64,000 nucleotides of DNA from Desulfobacula sp. (GTDB lineage: Bacteria > Desulfobacterota > Desulfobacteria > Desulfobacterales > Desulfobacteraceae), in assembly GCA_013792075.1 (NCBI GenBank), contig VMSR01000276.1:1-64000 (forward strand), written 5' to 3'. The notes under the pieces were generated by a model. That model saw nothing but the letters and a program-made list of their open reading frames with translations. It was not told the DNA's origin and made no database searches. A program made the position numbers and the translations under genes. Shown here one piece after another: positions 10,920 through 23,842 of this stretch; position 1 is the first letter of the stretch, and every line of letters starts with the position of its first letter.

Positions 10920-11323
10920 TTTTATGATCTCATATTCATTAAATTAAAAAGTTTATACCGGCATCTTGTTTCAGCAAGTGCCCTTTTTTTTAAATTCAAG
11001 TCTATCTATCATTTTTGCCATCAATAGTCATCATCTGGTTTTTAAAATTATCTTTTTACACTAGATCCCAATTATTGCAATCTTCCAAAAAGCGGTTTCC
11101 AGGATGCCTTGGCGTGACCGGTGCAAAAAAAGAGGGACTGGAGAAACTTTTTTCACGGCAGACGATTAATTTCCTTCTTTTTAAGAGAAAAAATATCTAA
11201 CTTCTTTACTTTTATTTAAAAATCTGAATAGGTGTAGTTTACTGGGGTGAGTGGTGAAACAGATACCAGTTTGCTTTAATGAAGCTTATGGGTCTTGTTT
11301 TTTTATTGAATTGGAGAGCGAAA
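10920..11323. other. AT-rich intergenic region between divergent genes
   Basis: This 404-base stretch between the minus-strand phosphatidyltransferase and the plus-strand PilZ-thioesterase contains no convincing gene. A 61-codon ORF (11015-11200) has no ribosome site and no coding character. The region should carry the promoters of both units; the only motif I can name is a sigma-54-like site at 11110-11125. Confidence 0.6.
11110..11125 (+). promoter_or_regulatory. Candidate sigma-54 promoter (-24/-12)
   Basis: TGGCGTGACCGGTGCA keeps the invariant GG and GC at the correct 10-base spacing and most of the TGGCACR-N4-TTGCW consensus; mismatches are at the AC and the first T of TTGC. It lies about 200 bases before the PilZ-thioesterase start. 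No activator site was identified. Confidence 0.3.
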
Positions 11324-12058
11324 ATGACGACAATGAGAAAAACCAGAGACCAACGCGTTCAAAAAAAAATCAAAGCTGTGCTGGACAACCAAACAGGAAT
11401 CATTGAAAATATTTCCACCTCAGGCGGTTTTCTGAAACTGGAAAGTGAAATTCCCACGGAGCCTTTTCTGCTTGAGTTAAAAATCAGTGAATTCAAGACC
11501 ATCAAAATGGAATGCGAACCCCTTTGGCATAACAGCTCAGGTGTCGGGTTCAGATTCCTTGACATTAAAGACGCCAAGGAAGATCTGTTCACCCAATATG
11601 TTGAAAAGCAGATCCAGGCCTTAAAAATTTATGGCAAAGAACGGGTGTTTAAAACAGAGGTCATGGTCACCCTGAAAAATACCAATGCGTTCGGCAATGT
11701 ATACTTCAGCAATTTTATCGAATACCAGGGAGTTGTCAGGGAAAAATTTTTATTGGCCAATGTGCCCAACCTGCACCAATTAATGGCCAATGGGAGCCTC
11801 CGCCTGGTGACCGTGGATACCTACCACCGGTTCATCAGCAACGCCTATTTCGGAGAAACCCTGGTGGTGGAATTGACCACTTCCGAAATAAAGGCCGCCA
11901 CCTGCAGACTGGAGATACTATTTAAGAACAAGGCCACGGGAAAGATGGTTGGGGAGGGGTATCAAAGAATTTGTCTGGTCAGTGAAAAGGGAAGGGTCAT
12001 GCGCATTCCTGAAAATTTTTTGGGACTCTTAAATTTTTACCATGAAATAAAGGAATAA
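11324..12058 (+). CDS. PilZ domain-hotdog thioesterase fusion
   Basis: A 244-residue cytoplasmic protein. Residues about 5-98 form a PilZ-like domain (NISTSGGF fits [DN]xSxxG at 29-34; the basic stretch RKTRDQR stands where RxxxR is expected but does not fit it exactly). Residues about 108-235 form a 4-hydroxybenzoyl-CoA thioesterase-like hotdog domain (NAFGNVYFSNFIEYQGVVRE). The catalytic Asp of classical 4HBT enzymes is Asn (N119), as in some specialised subfamilies. It probably hydrolyses an acyl thioester under cyclic-di-GMP or protein control (inference). The start at 11324 has GGAGAG 5 bases upstream. It ends 4 bases before the kinase/HD-GYP gene, so the two are co-transcribed. Confidence 0.75.
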   Translation: MTTMRKTRDQRVQKKIKAVLDNQTGIIENISTSGGFLKLESEIPTEPFLLELKISEFKTIKMECEPLWHNSSGVGFRFLDIKDAKEDLFTQYVEKQIQALKIYGKERVFKTEVMVTLKNTNAFGNVYFSNFIEYQGVVREKFLLANVPNLHQLMANGSLRLVTVDTYHRFISNAYFGETLVVELTTSEIKAATCRLEILFKNKATGKMVGEGYQRICLVSEKGRVMRIPENFLGLLNFYHEIKE

Positions 12059-12062
12059 GGGT

Positions 12063-14702
12063 ATGCCCTATCTGAGCGCAGTGCTGCCATTGTTTGCCGC
12101 CATTGTATCCTTGTCTCTGGGGATCGCAGGCTATTATCTGTCCAAGGGAGACGTTCGCAGGCTTTTTTTAAGGCTGTGCTGTATCACCTTTTTCTGGCAG
12201 TTTTCATGGGTGGTTCTGTTCATATCCAACAACAGCGAATATGCAGGCCTGATCTGCAAAATTGGGTATTCGGGTATTATTTTTCTTCCCCTGAGTGGTT
12301 ATGAAACCGTGGCCCATTACCTGAAAATTGGTAAAAAAGATATTTTCATACTCTATTGTGTGTGTTTCGGGTTCCTGGTCAGCCTGTGGACCACGGATCT
12401 TTTCATCCAAGGAGCCCATCTATACTGGTTTGGATATTATCCACGGGCGAATGTTCTCCACGGGGCATATCTTTTGATGGTGGGATATCTCATGGCCCGC
12501 AGCACCTATGTACTGGTCAGTTTTCACAAACAGGAAACAGATTCCGTAAAAAAGACCCAATTGAAATTCTTTTTTCTGTCCACCCTGGTATTTTCCTTTT
12601 CAGGCGTTGATTATCTTTTGAACTACCCGGCTCTGGTTGAACAGCTTCCCCTTCAATTATATCCCTTTGGGGTGTTTTTCATTACCTTCTCGATTTTTAT
12701 TTTTGTCCTTTCCCATTTTCTCACTTTGAACCTGACCCTTGAAAAGCGGGTGGCCCAAAAAACATTTGAACTGAGAAATTTAGTGGATGCCCTGGAAAAG
12801 TCAGCCAATGCCAAAAAAGAGTTTATTGCCAATGTCACCCATGAATTGCGCACCCCGCTCACCCTTATCCGGGGGTGGGCCGATTATGTGCGGGAAGGGG
12901 AGGCAGGGCATATTCCGGAAAGCTTCCTGGGGATCATGGAAAAAATCAGGGTGCAAACCCTTTCATTAACCCATAAAATCAATGAATTGCTCAAGATCTC
13001 TAAATTTGATGCCGGAATGGATACCCTTGCATTGACCCGGATGAATGTGGACACCTATATCTTTCAGATTGTTTCCAGTTTCAGGGGATTGACAGAGGCA
13101 AACCGGATCGATCTGGCCTATTATTCCGACCTGCCGGTTCAAGACCTTTATATGGACAAGGGAAAGCTTACGGATATTTTAAACAATTTGATCCGGAATG
13201 CCTATAAATTCACGGAAATGGGAGAGATCTCCGTAACGCTTTCAACCAGCGAGGAGCATATCAGCATTGAGGTCAAAGATACGGGAGTGGGCATGTCGCC
13301 TGCGGTTATGGAAACCATTTTCAACCGGTTTCAGCAGGGGGACAGTTCTCGAACCCGGCTGTACGAAGGAGCAGGCCTCGGACTTGCCATTGTCAAGGAA
13401 TCTGTTGAAAAGCTGTATGGAAGTATATCGGTATCCAGCATCGAAAACCAGGGCACCTGTTTTACCGTCAGGCTGCCCCGGGACCTTGAAAAAAAAGAAC
13501 CTGCAGCCACCAGAGAGAGACGCAAAACCGAGCGGCGAAAAAAAAATTCAGCCGTCCCCTTTGAGGAGCGCAGGGGAAAAGACCGGCGGGATGAAGACCT
13601 GGCCCGGATTGATGCCAGTGATATCGTCCGGATTGATTTGCACAACAATAACCTGTCAGGCCAGGGATATGTGAAAAAAATCGAGGCGGAAAATCCCAGG
13701 GGCACCATCGTTCTGGCAGAAGACAATGAGGGGATACGGGAGTTTCTGGGACGGGCGCTAAATGGATATACCCTTTACATGGCACCGGACGGCAAGCTGG
13801 CCTGGGACACCATCAAAAAAACAATGCCCGACCTTGTGATCTCGGATATCATGATGCCGGTCATGGACGGTTTTTCACTTTTGAAAAATATCAGGGACCA
13901 TAAACAGACCACCAATATCCCGGTGATCATCATCACCTCCCTTTCAGAGCAGGAGGACCGTATCAAATCTCTGCAGATGGGGGCGGACGATTTTCTCACC
14001 AAGCCCTTCCACCACCTGGAACTCCAGGCAAGGGTCAAAAATGTCATCAGTCTCCACAAGCTGGAGCGGGAAAAGACAAGACGGGAGCAATTGGAGGTGT
14101 TTTTAACGGTGCTTGCTTCGGCCATTGAATCCAAGGACCCCTATACCGGCGGCCATGTAGAACGGGTGGCAAACTATGCCCGGGATATAGCCTGCAAACT
14201 TTCCCTGTCCCGGGACAGGATTCATGATATCTATATGGGGACCATTGTCCATGATGTGGGGAAGATCGGCATCAAGGACGAGGTGCTCAATAAGCCCGGG
14301 AAACTGACGGATGAGGAATTTGAGCATATCAAGGAACATCCGTTGATCGGTAAGCATATTTTGTCCAAACTTAAAATCGCCCCTGTGGCCGTCAATATTG
14401 CTTATTACCACCAGGAAAAATGGGACGGCACAGGCTATCCCAGCAACGCCAGGGGCAAGGCCATTCCCCTCGAAGCCAGGATCGCCACCATTGCCGATGT
14501 CTGGGATGCCATTACCTCGGACCGGCCCTATCGCAAGGCCATCCCCCTTGGCAAGGCCGTCCGGATCATGGAAGAAGAGCGGGGGAAATCCTTTGACCCG
14601 GAATTGCTGGATCTGTTTATGGACAAGGAAGACACGATCTATTTGAATTATATTCCCAAAGAGCGGCTGGGGGAACTGGATATGGAAAAGATGGTTTCCT
14701 AG
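12063..14702 (+). CDS. Membrane histidine kinase-receiver-HD-GYP hybrid
   Basis: An 879-residue sensor. Residues 1-225 form about seven transmembrane segments (histidine-kinase 7TM-like sensor). Then come HisKA with phospho-acceptor H260 in VTHELRTPL, and HATPase (DTGVGMSP, GAGLGLAIVKE). A strongly basic linker rich in RR and KK (about 480-510) precedes a receiver domain with phospho-Asp in VISDIMMPVMDG near residue 594 and Lys in LTKPFH. The C-terminal HD-GYP domain has IVHDVGKIG near 729 and KWDGTGYP. HD-GYP proteins degrade cyclic-di-GMP, so a membrane signal would be turned into a change in that messenger, with the PilZ protein encoded just upstream as a possible effector. All catalytic motifs look intact. 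Ligand unknown. Confidence 0.9.
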   Translation: MPYLSAVLPLFAAIVSLSLGIAGYYLSKGDVRRLFLRLCCITFFWQFSWVVLFISNNSEYAGLICKIGYSGIIFLPLSGYETVAHYLKIGKKDIFILYCVCFGFLVSLWTTDLFIQGAHLYWFGYYPRANVLHGAYLLMVGYLMARSTYVLVSFHKQETDSVKKTQLKFFFLSTLVFSFSGVDYLLNYPALVEQLPLQLYPFGVFFITFSIFIFVLSHFLTLNLTLEKRVAQKTFELRNLVDALEKSANAKKEFIANVTHELRTPLTLIRGWADYVREGEAGHIPESFLGIMEKIRVQTLSLTHKINELLKISKFDAGMDTLALTRMNVDTYIFQIVSSFRGLTEANRIDLAYYSDLPVQDLYMDKGKLTDILNNLIRNAYKFTEMGEISVTLSTSEEHISIEVKDTGVGMSPAVMETIFNRFQQGDSSRTRLYEGAGLGLAIVKESVEKLYGSISVSSIENQGTCFTVRLPRDLEKKEPAATRERRKTERRKKNSAVPFEERRGKDRRDEDLARIDASDIVRIDLHNNNLSGQGYVKKIEAENPRGTIVLAEDNEGIREFLGRALNGYTLYMAPDGKLAWDTIKKTMPDLVISDIMMPVMDGFSLLKNIRDHKQTTNIPVIIITSLSEQEDRIKSLQMGADDFLTKPFHHLELQARVKNVISLHKLEREKTRREQLEVFLTVLASAIESKDPYTGGHVERVANYARDIACKLSLSRDRIHDIYMGTIVHDVGKIGIKDEVLNKPGKLTDEEFEHIKEHPLIGKHILSKLKIAPVAVNIAYYHQEKWDGTGYPSNARGKAIPLEARIATIADVWDAITSDRPYRKAIPLGKAVRIMEEERGKSFDPELLDLFMDKEDTIYLNYIPKERLGELDMEKMVS

Positions 14703-18751: not shown

Positions 18752-19582
18752 ATGATAAAACTGCGTGCGTGGATCTGTGCATTCCTCTTCTGGCTGGTGG
18801 TATTTTTCAATATGGAGCGGCTGGCAGAACAGGTGAATATGGCAAGTTTTGTGTATATTTATATCCCCCTGATCGCTGTTCTGGTTTTGTTTTTGCCCAA
18901 AATTCTTGACCTGATATCGGAAAAATTGTTTATTCTGATCCTGGTGGTATTGTTTTTCATGCAGAAACTGGCATTGGGTTATCTGATTTTCGATCGGAAC
19001 CTGCCCATTACCATCATGGAAATCTGCTGCATTGGCATTACCTATTATTTTGCCAGAACCATCGGCAAAATGGTGGCCGATTTTGAAGAGACCATTGCCA
19101 GCCTGACATTTCAGCAGATAGGCCTGGCGCCGCGACTCTATGATACCACGGATACGGAAGATCTTTACAGGGAGGTTAAACGGTGCCGGCGGTTTCAGCA
19201 TCCTTTGTCCCTGATGATTGTCCGGTCCCGCCCCATTGACCCGGAAAGCCGGACACCCAACAAATTGCTAAAAGAGATGCTGAGCTCTTTTTCAACCCGG
19301 TACGCCCAGGCCAGGCTTGCAAAAATGTACTCGGACAAACTCAGGGATACAGATCTTGTGGTATTAAAGAAAGATGAGCTGGTGGTGGTGCTTCCCGAAA
19401 CCACCAGGGAAAATGCCCAAAAGCTGTTGAACAATCTGCGGAAACGGGCAAAGGAAGAACTGGACCTGGAATTGTCCTGCGGCCTCTCTTCTTTTCCCGA
19501 CCATTCGGTCACCCTGGGCGGCCTGCTTGAATATGCCGGCAGTGACCTTGAACAAGACCTGGCCACGCAAAAAGGAAGATAA
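18752..19582 (+). CDS. Membrane protein with degenerate GGDEF-like domain
   Basis: A 276-residue protein with three to four N-terminal hydrophobic segments (residues 6-22, 30-50, 55-75, 85-105) and a cytoplasmic domain from about 130. The latter resembles GGDEF cyclases (LRDTDLVVLKKDELVVVLPETTRENAQ), but the GG[DE]EF active-site loop reads KKDEL, so diguanylate cyclase activity is not expected. It may bind nucleotide or serve as a scaffold. Its stop is directly followed by the ATG of the receiver-sugar transferase gene, so the two are coupled. The neighbour suggests a role in polysaccharide control (inference). Confidence 0.65.
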   Translation: MIKLRAWICAFLFWLVVFFNMERLAEQVNMASFVYIYIPLIAVLVLFLPKILDLISEKLFILILVVLFFMQKLALGYLIFDRNLPITIMEICCIGITYYFARTIGKMVADFEETIASLTFQQIGLAPRLYDTTDTEDLYREVKRCRRFQHPLSLMIVRSRPIDPESRTPNKLLKEMLSSFSTRYAQARLAKMYSDKLRDTDLVVLKKDELVVVLPETTRENAQKLLNNLRKRAKEELDLELSCGLSSFPDHSVTLGGLLEYAGSDLEQDLATQKGR

Positions 19583-20662
19583 ATGACGGAATCCTCGCCC
19601 CTTAAAACAGGAAGAATCCTGGTGGTTGAAGATGACCGGATTCAGATGGAGCTTATCCAACGGCTGGTCCGGTCCGAAGGTTATAGCGTCAGGGGTGTGG
19701 ACAGCGGTGAAGCTGCCATTGAGATGATTGCCCAGTGGTTTCCCTCCATTGTGCTCCTGGACATCCATTTGCCCGGTCTTAACGGACTTGAGATTCTGCG
19801 GCAGATACGTCAGGTGGATCGGATGCTCTATTTGCCCATTTTGCTGGTAACGGCAGAGTCCTCCATCGCTGAAAAGCGGAAAGGGTTTGAGGCCGGGGCG
19901 GACGACTTTATCGTGAAACCCTATAACAGGGAAGAACTCCTGCTGCGGATCAATGCCCATCTGCGTCGATATCGGCAGTCCTCAGAGGCAGACCGGCATA
20001 TCCCCGACGAAGGGGTCCGGATTCCCCTTGTGATCGGCCGCCCCAAAAGCGGTCTGTTTAAAAAGGGATTTCGTTTGTCCAAGCGCTTGTTTGATTTGAC
20101 CGCCTGTTTTTTAACCCTGCCGCTTACCCTGCCCGTCCTTTTTGCCATTGCCATTGCCATTCGCCTGGACGCAGGGGGTCCTGCCCTGTTCACCCAGGAA
20201 AGAACCGGCAAGAATGGCCGGCGGTTTAAGATGTTCAAATTCAGGACCATGGTGGAAAATGCCGAAGAATTGAAAACAACTTATGCCCATTTGAATGAAC
20301 TGACCTGGCCGGACTTTAAGATAGAGAATGACCCAAGGATAACCCGGGTGGGCCGGTTTCTGCGAAAATCCAGCCTGGACGAACTGCCCCAGCTGTTCAA
20401 TATCATTCTGGGCGATATGAGCCTTGTGGGACCGCGGCCCACATCTTTTACGGCAGACACGTACAAGTTGTGGCAGACCGAGCGACTGGAAGTCCGGCCG
20501 GGACTGACGGGTCTCTGGCAGGTCAGCGGCCGGAGCCATGTGGATTTTGTGGAACGGGTAGAGCTGGATATTGAATATATTGAACGCCAGAGCTGGCATC
20601 TGGACCTTAAAATACTGTGGCAAACCCTTACGGCTGTAGTCCAGGCCAAGGGGGCAAGTTGA
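19583..20662 (+). CDS. Response-regulator receiver fused to a bacterial sugar transferase
   Basis: A 359-residue fusion. Residues 10-130 are a complete receiver domain with acidic pocket D17-D18, phospho-acceptor D60 ([10 protein letters not shown]), T90 and K112. From about 160 comes a polyprenyl-phosphate sugar-1-phosphate transferase (WbaP/PglC family): a hydrophobic re-entrant segment, [21 protein letters not shown], the [12 protein letters not shown] Asp-Glu pair, GPRPT and [13 protein letters not shown]. These enzymes start exopolysaccharide or O-antigen repeats. Here a receiver replaces the usual N-terminal membrane region, which would place chain initiation under phosphorelay control (inference). 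The start directly follows the previous stop, with AAGGAAG upstream. Confidence 0.9.
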
Positions 20663-20901: not shown

Positions 20902-22110
20902 ATGGTGCTTGGCCGGGAGGTGGTGAACAGGGACGGGCGCCGTTTGTTCGATGCCGGGATTATATTGTCTGAAAAAATGATCAGAGCCTTGAAAATGTGG
21001 GGCATCCTTGAGGTGACGATTCCAAAGGACGGCATTCCGGAAGAACTCACCCCCCAGAACCCTCCTCCGGGTCGCACCCGTTTAGACACTGGGGAAAAAA
21101 AAGCGGTTCTGGCACGCCATTTTCGCCATAACGATTTGGAAAATTCAGTGGTAAAGGATATCTATGCGCTTTCTTTTGAACGGATTGAAACCTGTCCGGA
21201 AGTCTTAAATTTTCTTTTGGAGCCGTCCAAAAAGGGGTCTGAAAAATCGGATGTCCATGACCAGTATCCGGTGAATGGTATCCATTCCCTTTTGGCAGAT
21301 GAGATCAAATTGCCCTCCCTGCCCACCATTTTTTCCGAGATCAATGCAGCCATCAAGAACCCCAGTTTTTCCGGAAAAGATATCGCGGATATTGTCAGCA
21401 AGGATACCAGTCTGAGCGCCACCATTCTGAAGATTGTCAATTCCGCCTATTATGGATTCAATGAGCCGGTAGAATCCCTGGCCTACGCGGCCATGGCCTT
21501 GGGCAGCCGGCAGGTCTGTTCCCTGGCCCTGGGGATTACCGTGATTAATTATTTTAAGGGGCTTCCGGGAAATCGTATCAATATGCAGTCTTTTTGGCGT
21601 CATAGCGTGGCCTGCGGCATTACGGCCCAGATCCTGGCATCCCATGTGGAAAAGGTGAACAAAGAGCGGGTTTTTATTGGCGGACTGCTCCATGATATCG
21701 GGCAATTGGTATTTCTCTGCTATTATCCGCGAACAGCTGGAATTGCATTTGGGCAGGCGGGAAAACTGGATCTTTCCCCCCATCAGGTGGAACCCAGGTA
21801 TTTTGGAGTGACCCATGCCGTTTTTGGCGGTTTAATAGCAGACAAGTGGAATTTTTCGACCCATATTTCGGCTCAGATCCGTCATCACCATGATGATTTT
21901 AAAGAGAAACCGCCCAGGGAAATCGCCATTGTTTATTTTTCAAACTGGCTGGTCAATGCGCTGGGTATCGGGTCATCCGCCAGGTATAACCTTCCCCGGC
22001 TGAACATGAATGCCTGGCAGTCCCTGGGTATTTCCCACCGTGTGCTGGAGCCTGTTATCCGTCAACTGGACCGTCAGCTTGTGGAGGCGATCAAGTTTTT
22101 TTATGAATGA
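20902..22110 (+). CDS. HDOD domain signalling protein
   Basis: A 402-residue protein. The N-terminal region (GMVLGREVVNRDGRRLFDAGIIL) matches the small domain often found before HD-type modules, and residues about 130-340 form an HDOD domain (LPSLPTIFSEINAAI, KDTSLSATILKIVNSAYY, GGLLHDIGQLV). HDOD proteins are non-hydrolytic relatives of HD phosphohydrolases and take part in bacterial signalling. Homology seems to begin just before the ATG at 20902 (the frame is open back to 20869), so an unusual upstream start is possible; AAAGG at 20886 supports 20902. It overlaps the downstream kinase gene by 8 bases. Confidence 0.85.
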   Translation: MVLGREVVNRDGRRLFDAGIILSEKMIRALKMWGILEVTIPKDGIPEELTPQNPPPGRTRLDTGEKKAVLARHFRHNDLENSVVKDIYALSFERIETCPEVLNFLLEPSKKGSEKSDVHDQYPVNGIHSLLADEIKLPSLPTIFSEINAAIKNPSFSGKDIADIVSKDTSLSATILKIVNSAYYGFNEPVESLAYAAMALGSRQVCSLALGITVINYFKGLPGNRINMQSFWRHSVACGITAQILASHVEKVNKERVFIGGLLHDIGQLVFLCYYPRTAGIAFGQAGKLDLSPHQVEPRYFGVTHAVFGGLIADKWNFSTHISAQIRHHHDDFKEKPPREIAIVYFSNWLVNALGIGSSARYNLPRLNMNAWQSLGISHRVLEPVIRQLDRQLVEAIKFFYE

Positions 22111-23842
22111 TTTGCCTGAAATGGATATGAGCCAGCGCCTGGACTATCTGGAACAGGCCAATCGGTTTAAAATGCAGGCCCTTACCCTGATCCGGGAACT
22201 GGGTGATTTTCATTCTAGCATTAATCAATTGGAAACCCCGGATATTATTTTGGAAAAAACCCGGGACCAGGTTTCGAAACTGATTCAATTTAAATCCATG
22301 GCCTTTTTTCTGATCGACGAAACAACATCTGAATTTCACCTTTCCCTCTGCTGCCCTGAAACCGACAGGCATGGTATTGAATCGGAATTGGAGTGTTTTA
22401 TAGAGGATGGTACCTTTTCCAGGGCCGTGGTGGAAAAAATTCCCGTCACGGCCTATGCCAGGGATTTTAAGGACCAGTTCCTGCTCCATGTACTGACAAC
22501 GGTGTCCCGGGTCAGGGGCATGTTTGTGGGTGTTCTGGAAAAAAAAGCAAAACATGTCCCGGAAGCCGCTTTTGAACTTTTTTCCATTGTCATGACCCAT
22601 TGCGCCAATGGACTGGAGAGTTTTGAACTCTACCGGCAACTAAAATCCGTGAACAGGGATCTTGAGCAAAAAGTCACCCAATTGTCCGTTTCCGAGGCCT
22701 GTCTGAAAAAGGAAATAAAAGACCATAAAAAAACAATGATTGCCCTGGGCATAAGTGAAGGACAATATCGGCAGTTGTCTGAAACAGCCCATGAGGTGAT
22801 ACTGACCCTATCCCCCCAGGGGAAGATTCTCTATGTCAATGGGTCCGGGCTGCGGCTCAGTCAGTATTCACAAAAGCAATTTCTCCAAAAGGACCCAGGT
22901 TCTCTTTTCCAGGATTTTGAGAAGATCCGGCACCAGGCGAAAGACGGAAGAACAGAGAACCACTATACCTTTCTGACAGACATGGCGGGTCGGAAAATCC
23001 CATTGGAGATCTCCATTGTCCCCTTAAAAGAGGGTGATGCCAAGACAGGCCTGCTGATTGTAGGGCGGGACATCTCTGAACGGATCCGGGCGGAAAAAGA
23101 GAGGAAAACCCTTGAATCCAAATTGTGGCAGGCCCGGAAAATGGAATCCATCGGCCTGCTGGCCGGCGGCACTGCCCATGATTTTAACAATCTGCTCACC
23201 ATTATCATCAATTATACGGACTTGTCTTTCCATAGCCTGCCCCCGGGGCATGCCATCCTTCCGAATCTTAAAAAAATTGAGACCGCTTCCATGCGGGCAG
23301 TGGACCTTGCCAAAAAGCTATATACCATCGGCCGGGAGGATCGCCATGAGACCCATTTGGTAAACCTTGCCGGCGTGATAGAAGAAACCCTTGGGCTGCT
23401 GAAAAATTCCCTGGGGAAAGGTATCACCCTTAGTGCCTGCATCCGGGAGATGAAATTGATGGTTATGGCGGAAGAAACCCGGATTCAGCAGGTATTAATG
23501 AATTTGATCACCAATGCTGCCCATGCCATGGGAAAAGGGGAAATACGGGTGTGCGGAGAAAAAATTCTTCTGGAAAAAGGCCTGGACCAGGCGGCCCTGG
23601 GGATTGATCCGGGACCCTGTATCCGGATGTCGGTGACAGATACGGGCCCGGGCATAGATCCCGGGATTCTTTCCCAGGTGTTTGATCCCTATTTTTCAAC
23701 CAAAAAAGGGGGGGACAATGCGGGGCTCGGGCTTGCCGTTGTTTTCGGGATTGTGAAAAATTACCAGGGTGCCATTGACCTGAAGTCTGTCAAAGGCCGG
23801 GGCACCACCTTCCATATTTATCTGCCCGAAGCCTTTGGATAA
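22103..23842 (+). CDS. Soluble GAF-PAS sensor histidine kinase
   Basis: A 579-residue kinase with no transmembrane segment. Order: an N-terminal coiled region, a GAF-like domain (about 30-190), a coiled coil, a PAS domain (about 220-335, ILTLSPQGKILYVNGSG), HisKA with the acceptor His in LAGGTAHDFNN, and HATPase (NLITNAAHAMG, DTGPGIDPG, GLGLAVVFGIVK). This kinase type usually pairs with a receiver on another protein; none is fused. The ATG at 22103 overlaps the HDOD stop, so the pair is co-translated and may signal together. Signal unknown; GAF domains commonly bind small ligands or haem. Confidence 0.88.
   Translation: MNDLPEMDMSQRLDYLEQANRFKMQALTLIRELGDFHSSINQLETPDIILEKTRDQVSKLIQFKSMAFFLIDETTSEFHLSLCCPETDRHGIESELECFIEDGTFSRAVVEKIPVTAYARDFKDQFLLHVLTTVSRVRGMFVGVLEKKAKHVPEAAFELFSIVMTHCANGLESFELYRQLKSVNRDLEQKVTQLSVSEACLKKEIKDHKKTMIALGISEGQYRQLSETAHEVILTLSPQGKILYVNGSGLRLSQYSQKQFLQKDPGSLFQDFEKIRHQAKDGRTENHYTFLTDMAGRKIPLEISIVPLKEGDAKTGLLIVGRDISERIRAEKERKTLESKLWQARKMESIGLLAGGTAHDFNNLLTIIINYTDLSFHSLPPGHAILPNLKKIETASMRAVDLAKKLYTIGREDRHETHLVNLAGVIEETLGLLKNSLGKGITLSACIREMKLMVMAEETRIQQVLMNLITNAAHAMGKGEIRVCGEKILLEKGLDQAALGIDPGPCIRMSVTDTGPGIDPGILSQVFDPYFSTKKGGDNAGLGLAVVFGIVKNYQGAIDLKSVKGRGTTFHIYLPEAFG

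Follow-up and report, generated by a model that had tools for sequence, protein, structure and literature searches.

A receiver-fused phosphoglycosyl transferase paired with a degenerate GGDEF membrane protein: a putative split initiating transferase in Desulfobacula

Competing bacterial pathways draw on the same undecaprenyl phosphate and nucleotide sugars, and how the cell rations these is still an open question. A pair of adjacent genes in the 64,000-nucleotide stretch of Desulfobacula sp. DNA analysed here (the window) raises a specific form of it: can the start of a polysaccharide chain be controlled directly by signals? The pair lies on the forward strand, as do the HDOD and kinase genes downstream of it. 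The first gene, which we call X (18,752–19,582), encodes a 276-aa membrane protein made up of four helices and a degenerate GGDEF domain. The second, REC-PGT (19,583–20,662), encodes a 359-aa protein that joins a receiver domain (REC) to a phosphoglycosyl transferase (PGT). An earlier note on this DNA had placed the start of the receiver-transferase gene directly at the stop of the GGDEF relative. Both reading frames were verified as given there; the TAA of X occupies 19,580–19,582 and the ATG of REC-PGT starts at 19,583, leaving no gap. Scanning for promoters and terminators around it gave scores no better than those of shuffled sequences. The same note described the receiver as replacing a membrane domain. 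The receiver does precede the transferase but is not simply a substitute for such a domain: the separate upstream gene X encodes the membrane part.

The transferase assignment is secure. Residues 167–353 of REC-PGT (20,081–20,641) match PF02397 (Bac_transf) with an E of 9e-67, together with WbaP and PglC matches, and are separated from the receiver by a linker (19,952–20,080) that spans the interval between the two Pfam matches. Loss of the Asp-Glu dyad had been named beforehand as grounds for rejecting the proposed phospho-switched transferase; the dyad is present as D266-E267 (20,378–20,383), aligned to D382-E383 of WbaP. Eight residues (R207, K219, R221, R261, D266, E267, R285, and D329) are invariant across 28 aligned PGTs, and the DX12P re-entrant helix corresponds to D171–P184, with a proline that aligns imperfectly in some relatives. 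The Bac_transf match, dyad and DX12P helix place the protein in the monotopic phosphoglycosyl transferase superfamily. It does not fit the definition of a large monotopic PGT, as the four-helix bundle is in gene X and not in the PGT chain. The earlier note had labelled it a WbaP/PglC-type transferase; in a phylogenetic tree, the catalytic half groups with X-linked PGTs and not with the classic WbaP proteins.

Fold prediction and motif alignment bear out the description of X as a degenerate GGDEF membrane protein that contains KKDEL. In the AlphaFold2 model (mean pLDDT 73), residues 1–123 (18,752–19,120) form four membrane-type helices, predicted from secondary structure and hydrophobicity at residues 2–24, 31–54, 57–74, and 84–123, and residues 124–274 (19,121–19,573) adopt a GGDEF fold. 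The GGDEF domain falls just under the Pfam cut-off (21.8 versus 23.8 bits), and the N-terminus is hydrophobic. Structural comparison of residues 124–274 using VIA-align gave a best Z of 16.6 over 140 residues, to DgcR, and a Foldseek search with the X model likewise returned the GGDEF fold (2.7e-8). Alignment of 27 X homologues indicates that the active site has been lost throughout: none retains GG(D/E)EF, which is replaced by KKDEL in the window protein (19,367–19,381), and the metal-binding aspartic acid of DxDxFK is unconserved. These missing motifs rule out an active diguanylate cyclase. Where the RxxD of a c-di-GMP I-site would lie, the window protein has RDTD (residues 198–201; 19,343–19,354). 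An RxxD is found at this position in 21 of the 27 X proteins, six of the 21 being near-identical copies; it is absent from L001, L002, L148, L170, L171, and L172. Because of these six losses, c-di-GMP binding is not general among X proteins.

Membrane helices combined with a degenerate GGDEF domain resemble the plan of PelD. X may therefore be read as a PelD-type c-di-GMP receptor that gates the PGT, leaving the receiver in a secondary role. The common layout near polysaccharide synthesis, the dead GGDEF domain with an RxxD in most homologues, and the presence of PilZ and HD-GYP genes within the window are consistent with this reading. The resemblance is not one of sequence: the PelD_GGDEF model matched one member only (E 0.077, not significant), the GAF domain of PelD was not found in Pfam searches, and X is partnered with a PGT rather than a Pel synthase. 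We accordingly rejected membership of the PelD family. As the six proteins without RxxD also argue against a general c-di-GMP receptor, we consider a PelD-like role unlikely, although it remains the most serious competitor to the reading that we favour, in which X is the membrane half of the transferase itself.

That reading draws on the distribution of X. PGT matches in the genome collection led to X homologues adjoining a PGT in L001–L004 and L006. With X as the query, homologues turned up in Chloroflexota (16 of 301 genomes) and in Planctomycetota (4 of 294), these phylum names being taken from the seed loci L006 and L003, respectively. A PGT adjoins X, or forms one chain with it, in 27 of 28 genomes, which belong to Chloroflexota, Planctomycetota, unplaced MAGs, and the window's order. 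The fair count is 18 of 18, since some of the 28 were found through their PGT; in each of these non-seed Chloroflexota and Planctomycetota genomes with X, the PGT is a same-strand neighbour or is fused. The sole exception among the 28 is G499, where X lies ∼12 kb from the PGT; a second X in G498, partial at a contig end, was left out of the judgement. A genome has only a handful of PGTs, and the rate at which a random gene would adjoin one of them is far below 1%; chance therefore does not explain the association. In two of the 27 genomes, L148 (561 aa) and L170 (a 599-aa frame), X and the PGT form one polypeptide with X at the N-terminus and the PGT at the C-terminus, a domain order shared with WbaP. 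This conserved pairing and natural fusion strongly support the coupling to a GGDEF-like protein that was proposed from the window alone. The pairs in L001–L004 and G012 sit among Wzx, Wzy, chain-length or OPX genes. Weaker matches that might have suggested many more X proteins in Desulfobacterota mostly cover the GGDEF stretch only and look like generic GGDEF proteins; they were rejected.

Phylogenetic analysis unites the X-linked, X-fused, and REC-fused PGTs in one clade (98/97), which also takes in L005, L007, and L010, PGTs that lack an adjacent full X. A survey of 86 genomes from the family and of 389 sampled across the order identified only two full-length REC-PGTs, in the window genome and in G012; a sample of 395 genomes from the phylum added none. 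A candidate at L070 was discarded because its PGT and its OmpR-type regulator are encoded by separate genes. Within the X-linked clade, the two REC-PGTs group as sisters (100/93). The partnership with X thus seems to predate the fusion of the receiver, which appears to be a late, rare addition. Another genome of the window's order, G1100, encodes an X-PGT pair without a receiver.

What, then, does the receiver contribute? In the window protein, it spans residues 12–123 (19,616–19,951; PF00072, Response_reg, E 2.4e-28). D60 (19,760–19,762) is the phospho-acceptor position, and D60, T90, and K112 were all correctly identified in the earlier note; the Mg-binding acidic pair E16/D17 completes the set. 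REC-PGT contains no DNA-binding domain. The AlphaFold model is good for the PGT, but pLDDT is <50 for the receiver, for which the input alignment held no well-aligned rows; MAFFT misaligned the alignments that mixed receiver and PGT rows. The window and G012 proteins, from two genera, are 61% identical overall, with 50% identity in the receiver, 72% in the PGT and 38% in the linker (residues 131–164). In the G012 receiver, I15/A16 replace the acidic pair and P89 replaces the threonine, while the aspartic acid and lysine are kept. Phosphorylation is thus not a conserved property of the two proteins: judged by these residues, it is possible in the window receiver and unlikely in that of G012. 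Both proteins nonetheless retain positions K98-E118 and D108-R122, which we take to be the salt-bridge positions of a PhoB-type dimer interface.

These observations bear on a second alternative, in which the receiver serves for docking or dimerisation independently of phosphorylation and any regulation passes through X. The substitutions in G012, set beside its retained salt-bridge positions, fit such a role, as do the lower conservation of the receiver relative to the PGT and the greater apparent age of the partnership with X. Drift should nevertheless have eroded the phosphorylation residues of a purely structural domain, and the window receiver retains all of them; we regard this alternative as rather improbable. 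Ordinary genes that are neighbours by chance, with a receiver fusion devoid of regulatory meaning, would suit the isolation of the window pair from polysaccharide genes and a fusion seen in just two of the 389 genomes sampled from the order, but this explanation is very improbable given that X-PGT pairing persists across several phyla, with two fusions, and that the receiver fusion is kept in two genera.

We favour, with some confidence, a model in which X and REC-PGT constitute one split sugar-1-phosphate transferase complex, with phosphorylation of the receiver as the likely control and X as a possible second input. X would be the membrane and regulatory half and the second protein the catalytic half; together they would amount to a large monotopic PGT resembling WbaP and EpsZ, in which a dead GGDEF domain stands where the cytoplasmic domain normally does. 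We infer this split from the conserved adjacency, the natural fusions, and the shared layout. The complex would start an exported polysaccharide. In the window lineage, the PGT would have gained an N-terminal receiver, and phosphorylation of D60 would most probably cause receivers to pair through their alpha4-beta5-alpha5 faces, promoting an active dimeric assembly. The second input might come through X, for example as c-di-GMP bound at RDTD, and the G012 receiver seems to be retained as a structural pairing domain only. Several points count against the model: only two REC-PGTs are known from the survey, one of them has a receiver unlikely to be phosphorylated, and the window pair lies outside any polysaccharide cluster. 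Chain initiation probably has built-in signal control, because across several phyla X recurs as a conserved half of this enzyme, in some cases fused to the other half. More tentatively, split and re-fused initiating transferases with a dead-GGDEF allosteric half, possibly a c-di-GMP sensor, may occur across phyla, with one lineage having added a phospho-receiver. If so, two signalling systems would converge on the first committed step of polysaccharide export.

A strong precedent for receiver control comes from Myxococcus xanthus, in which the phosphorylated single-domain receiver EpsW activates the PGT EpsZ, apparently by favouring an active dimer (PMC12802240). This case of a receiver controlling an initiating PGT post-translationally dates only from 2025 (PMC12802240). 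A fused receiver pairing upon phosphorylation would have the equivalent effect within a single molecule, while X would provide the membrane bundle and cytoplasmic domain that are built into EpsZ. In both EpsW/EpsZ and the proposed window system, a receiver acts post-translationally on an initiating monotopic PGT with a shared catalytic domain. However, EpsW is a separate protein and EpsZ carries four helices, a cytoplasmic domain, and the PGT catalytic domain in one chain (PMC12802240), whereas in the window the receiver is fused to the PGT and the GGDEF-like membrane protein is separate. The proposal that phosphorylation switches chain initiation without transcription is plausible for the window protein, since its receiver is intact, it lacks a DNA-binding domain, and the Myxococcus receiver activates a PGT; it does not extend readily to G012, which has lost the acidic pair and threonine. 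The window PGT also matches the catalytic domain of WbaP-type large monotopic PGTs (PDB 8t53, 30us; E 6e-45), whose plan of membrane bundle, cytoplasmic domain, and PGT is that of X and the PGT taken together. Unlike WbaP, the window system is divided between two genes, has a GGDEF fold replacing the usual cytoplasmic domain, and bears an additional receiver. According to PMC12802240, O'Toole et al. 2021 had earlier noted receiver domains on small monoPGTs; as far as that account goes, these resemble the window protein in joining REC to a PGT that has no membrane bundle of its own, and the fusion as such is therefore not new. The REC-PGT observation is real and partly anticipated by published work. 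Literature searches pairing GGDEF with PGT returned nothing relevant, X is unreported in the literature searched, and the split X-PGT module appears undescribed there. With the fusion and its linked dead-GGDEF subunit, control of chain initiation by phosphorylation and by second messengers can be put to a direct test in compact systems.

The HDOD and GAF-PAS kinase genes, suggested earlier as a source of the signal, are present downstream. The HDOD gene (20,902–22,110) begins after a gap of 239 bases and is a possible same-transcript neighbour. The GAF-PAS histidine kinase gene (22,104–23,842) overlaps the HDOD stop at 22,104–22,110 (ATGAATGA), suggesting translational coupling of these two genes. 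By its proximity, the kinase is a candidate partner of the receiver. No full-length homologue of it was found in 46 relatives, and neither kinase nor HDOD genes occur beside the G012 pair; this distribution fits, but does not show, that the kinase and an intact receiver go together. In G012, the pair is part of a cluster that also encodes OPX, chain-length, polymerase, flippase, and glycosyltransferase proteins. Five further PGTs are encoded in the window genome, and on its contig C305 a cluster homologous to that of G012 (OPX 45% and GT 43% identical) includes a divergent PGT; the X/REC-PGT pair may serve this cluster. The C305 PGT (L155, 3361–4470), in a Wzx/Wzy-like cluster, has a C-terminal extension of ∼150 residues without a significant Pfam match.

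Several other genes were encountered in the survey. In a Chloroflexota MAG (L004, 8226–9353), the X-PGT pair is followed directly by a gene for a Wzz-type chain-length protein to which a degenerate GGDEF domain is fused. OmpR-type response regulators are encoded beside PGT genes in Chloroflexota at L007 (6947–8618) and L070 (8007–9527). Within the window, the gene at 11,279–12,058 encodes a protein in which PilZ is followed by a thioesterase-like (4HBT_2) domain, which is an unusual pairing, and adjoins a 7TM kinase-receiver-HD-GYP hybrid at 12,063–14,702.
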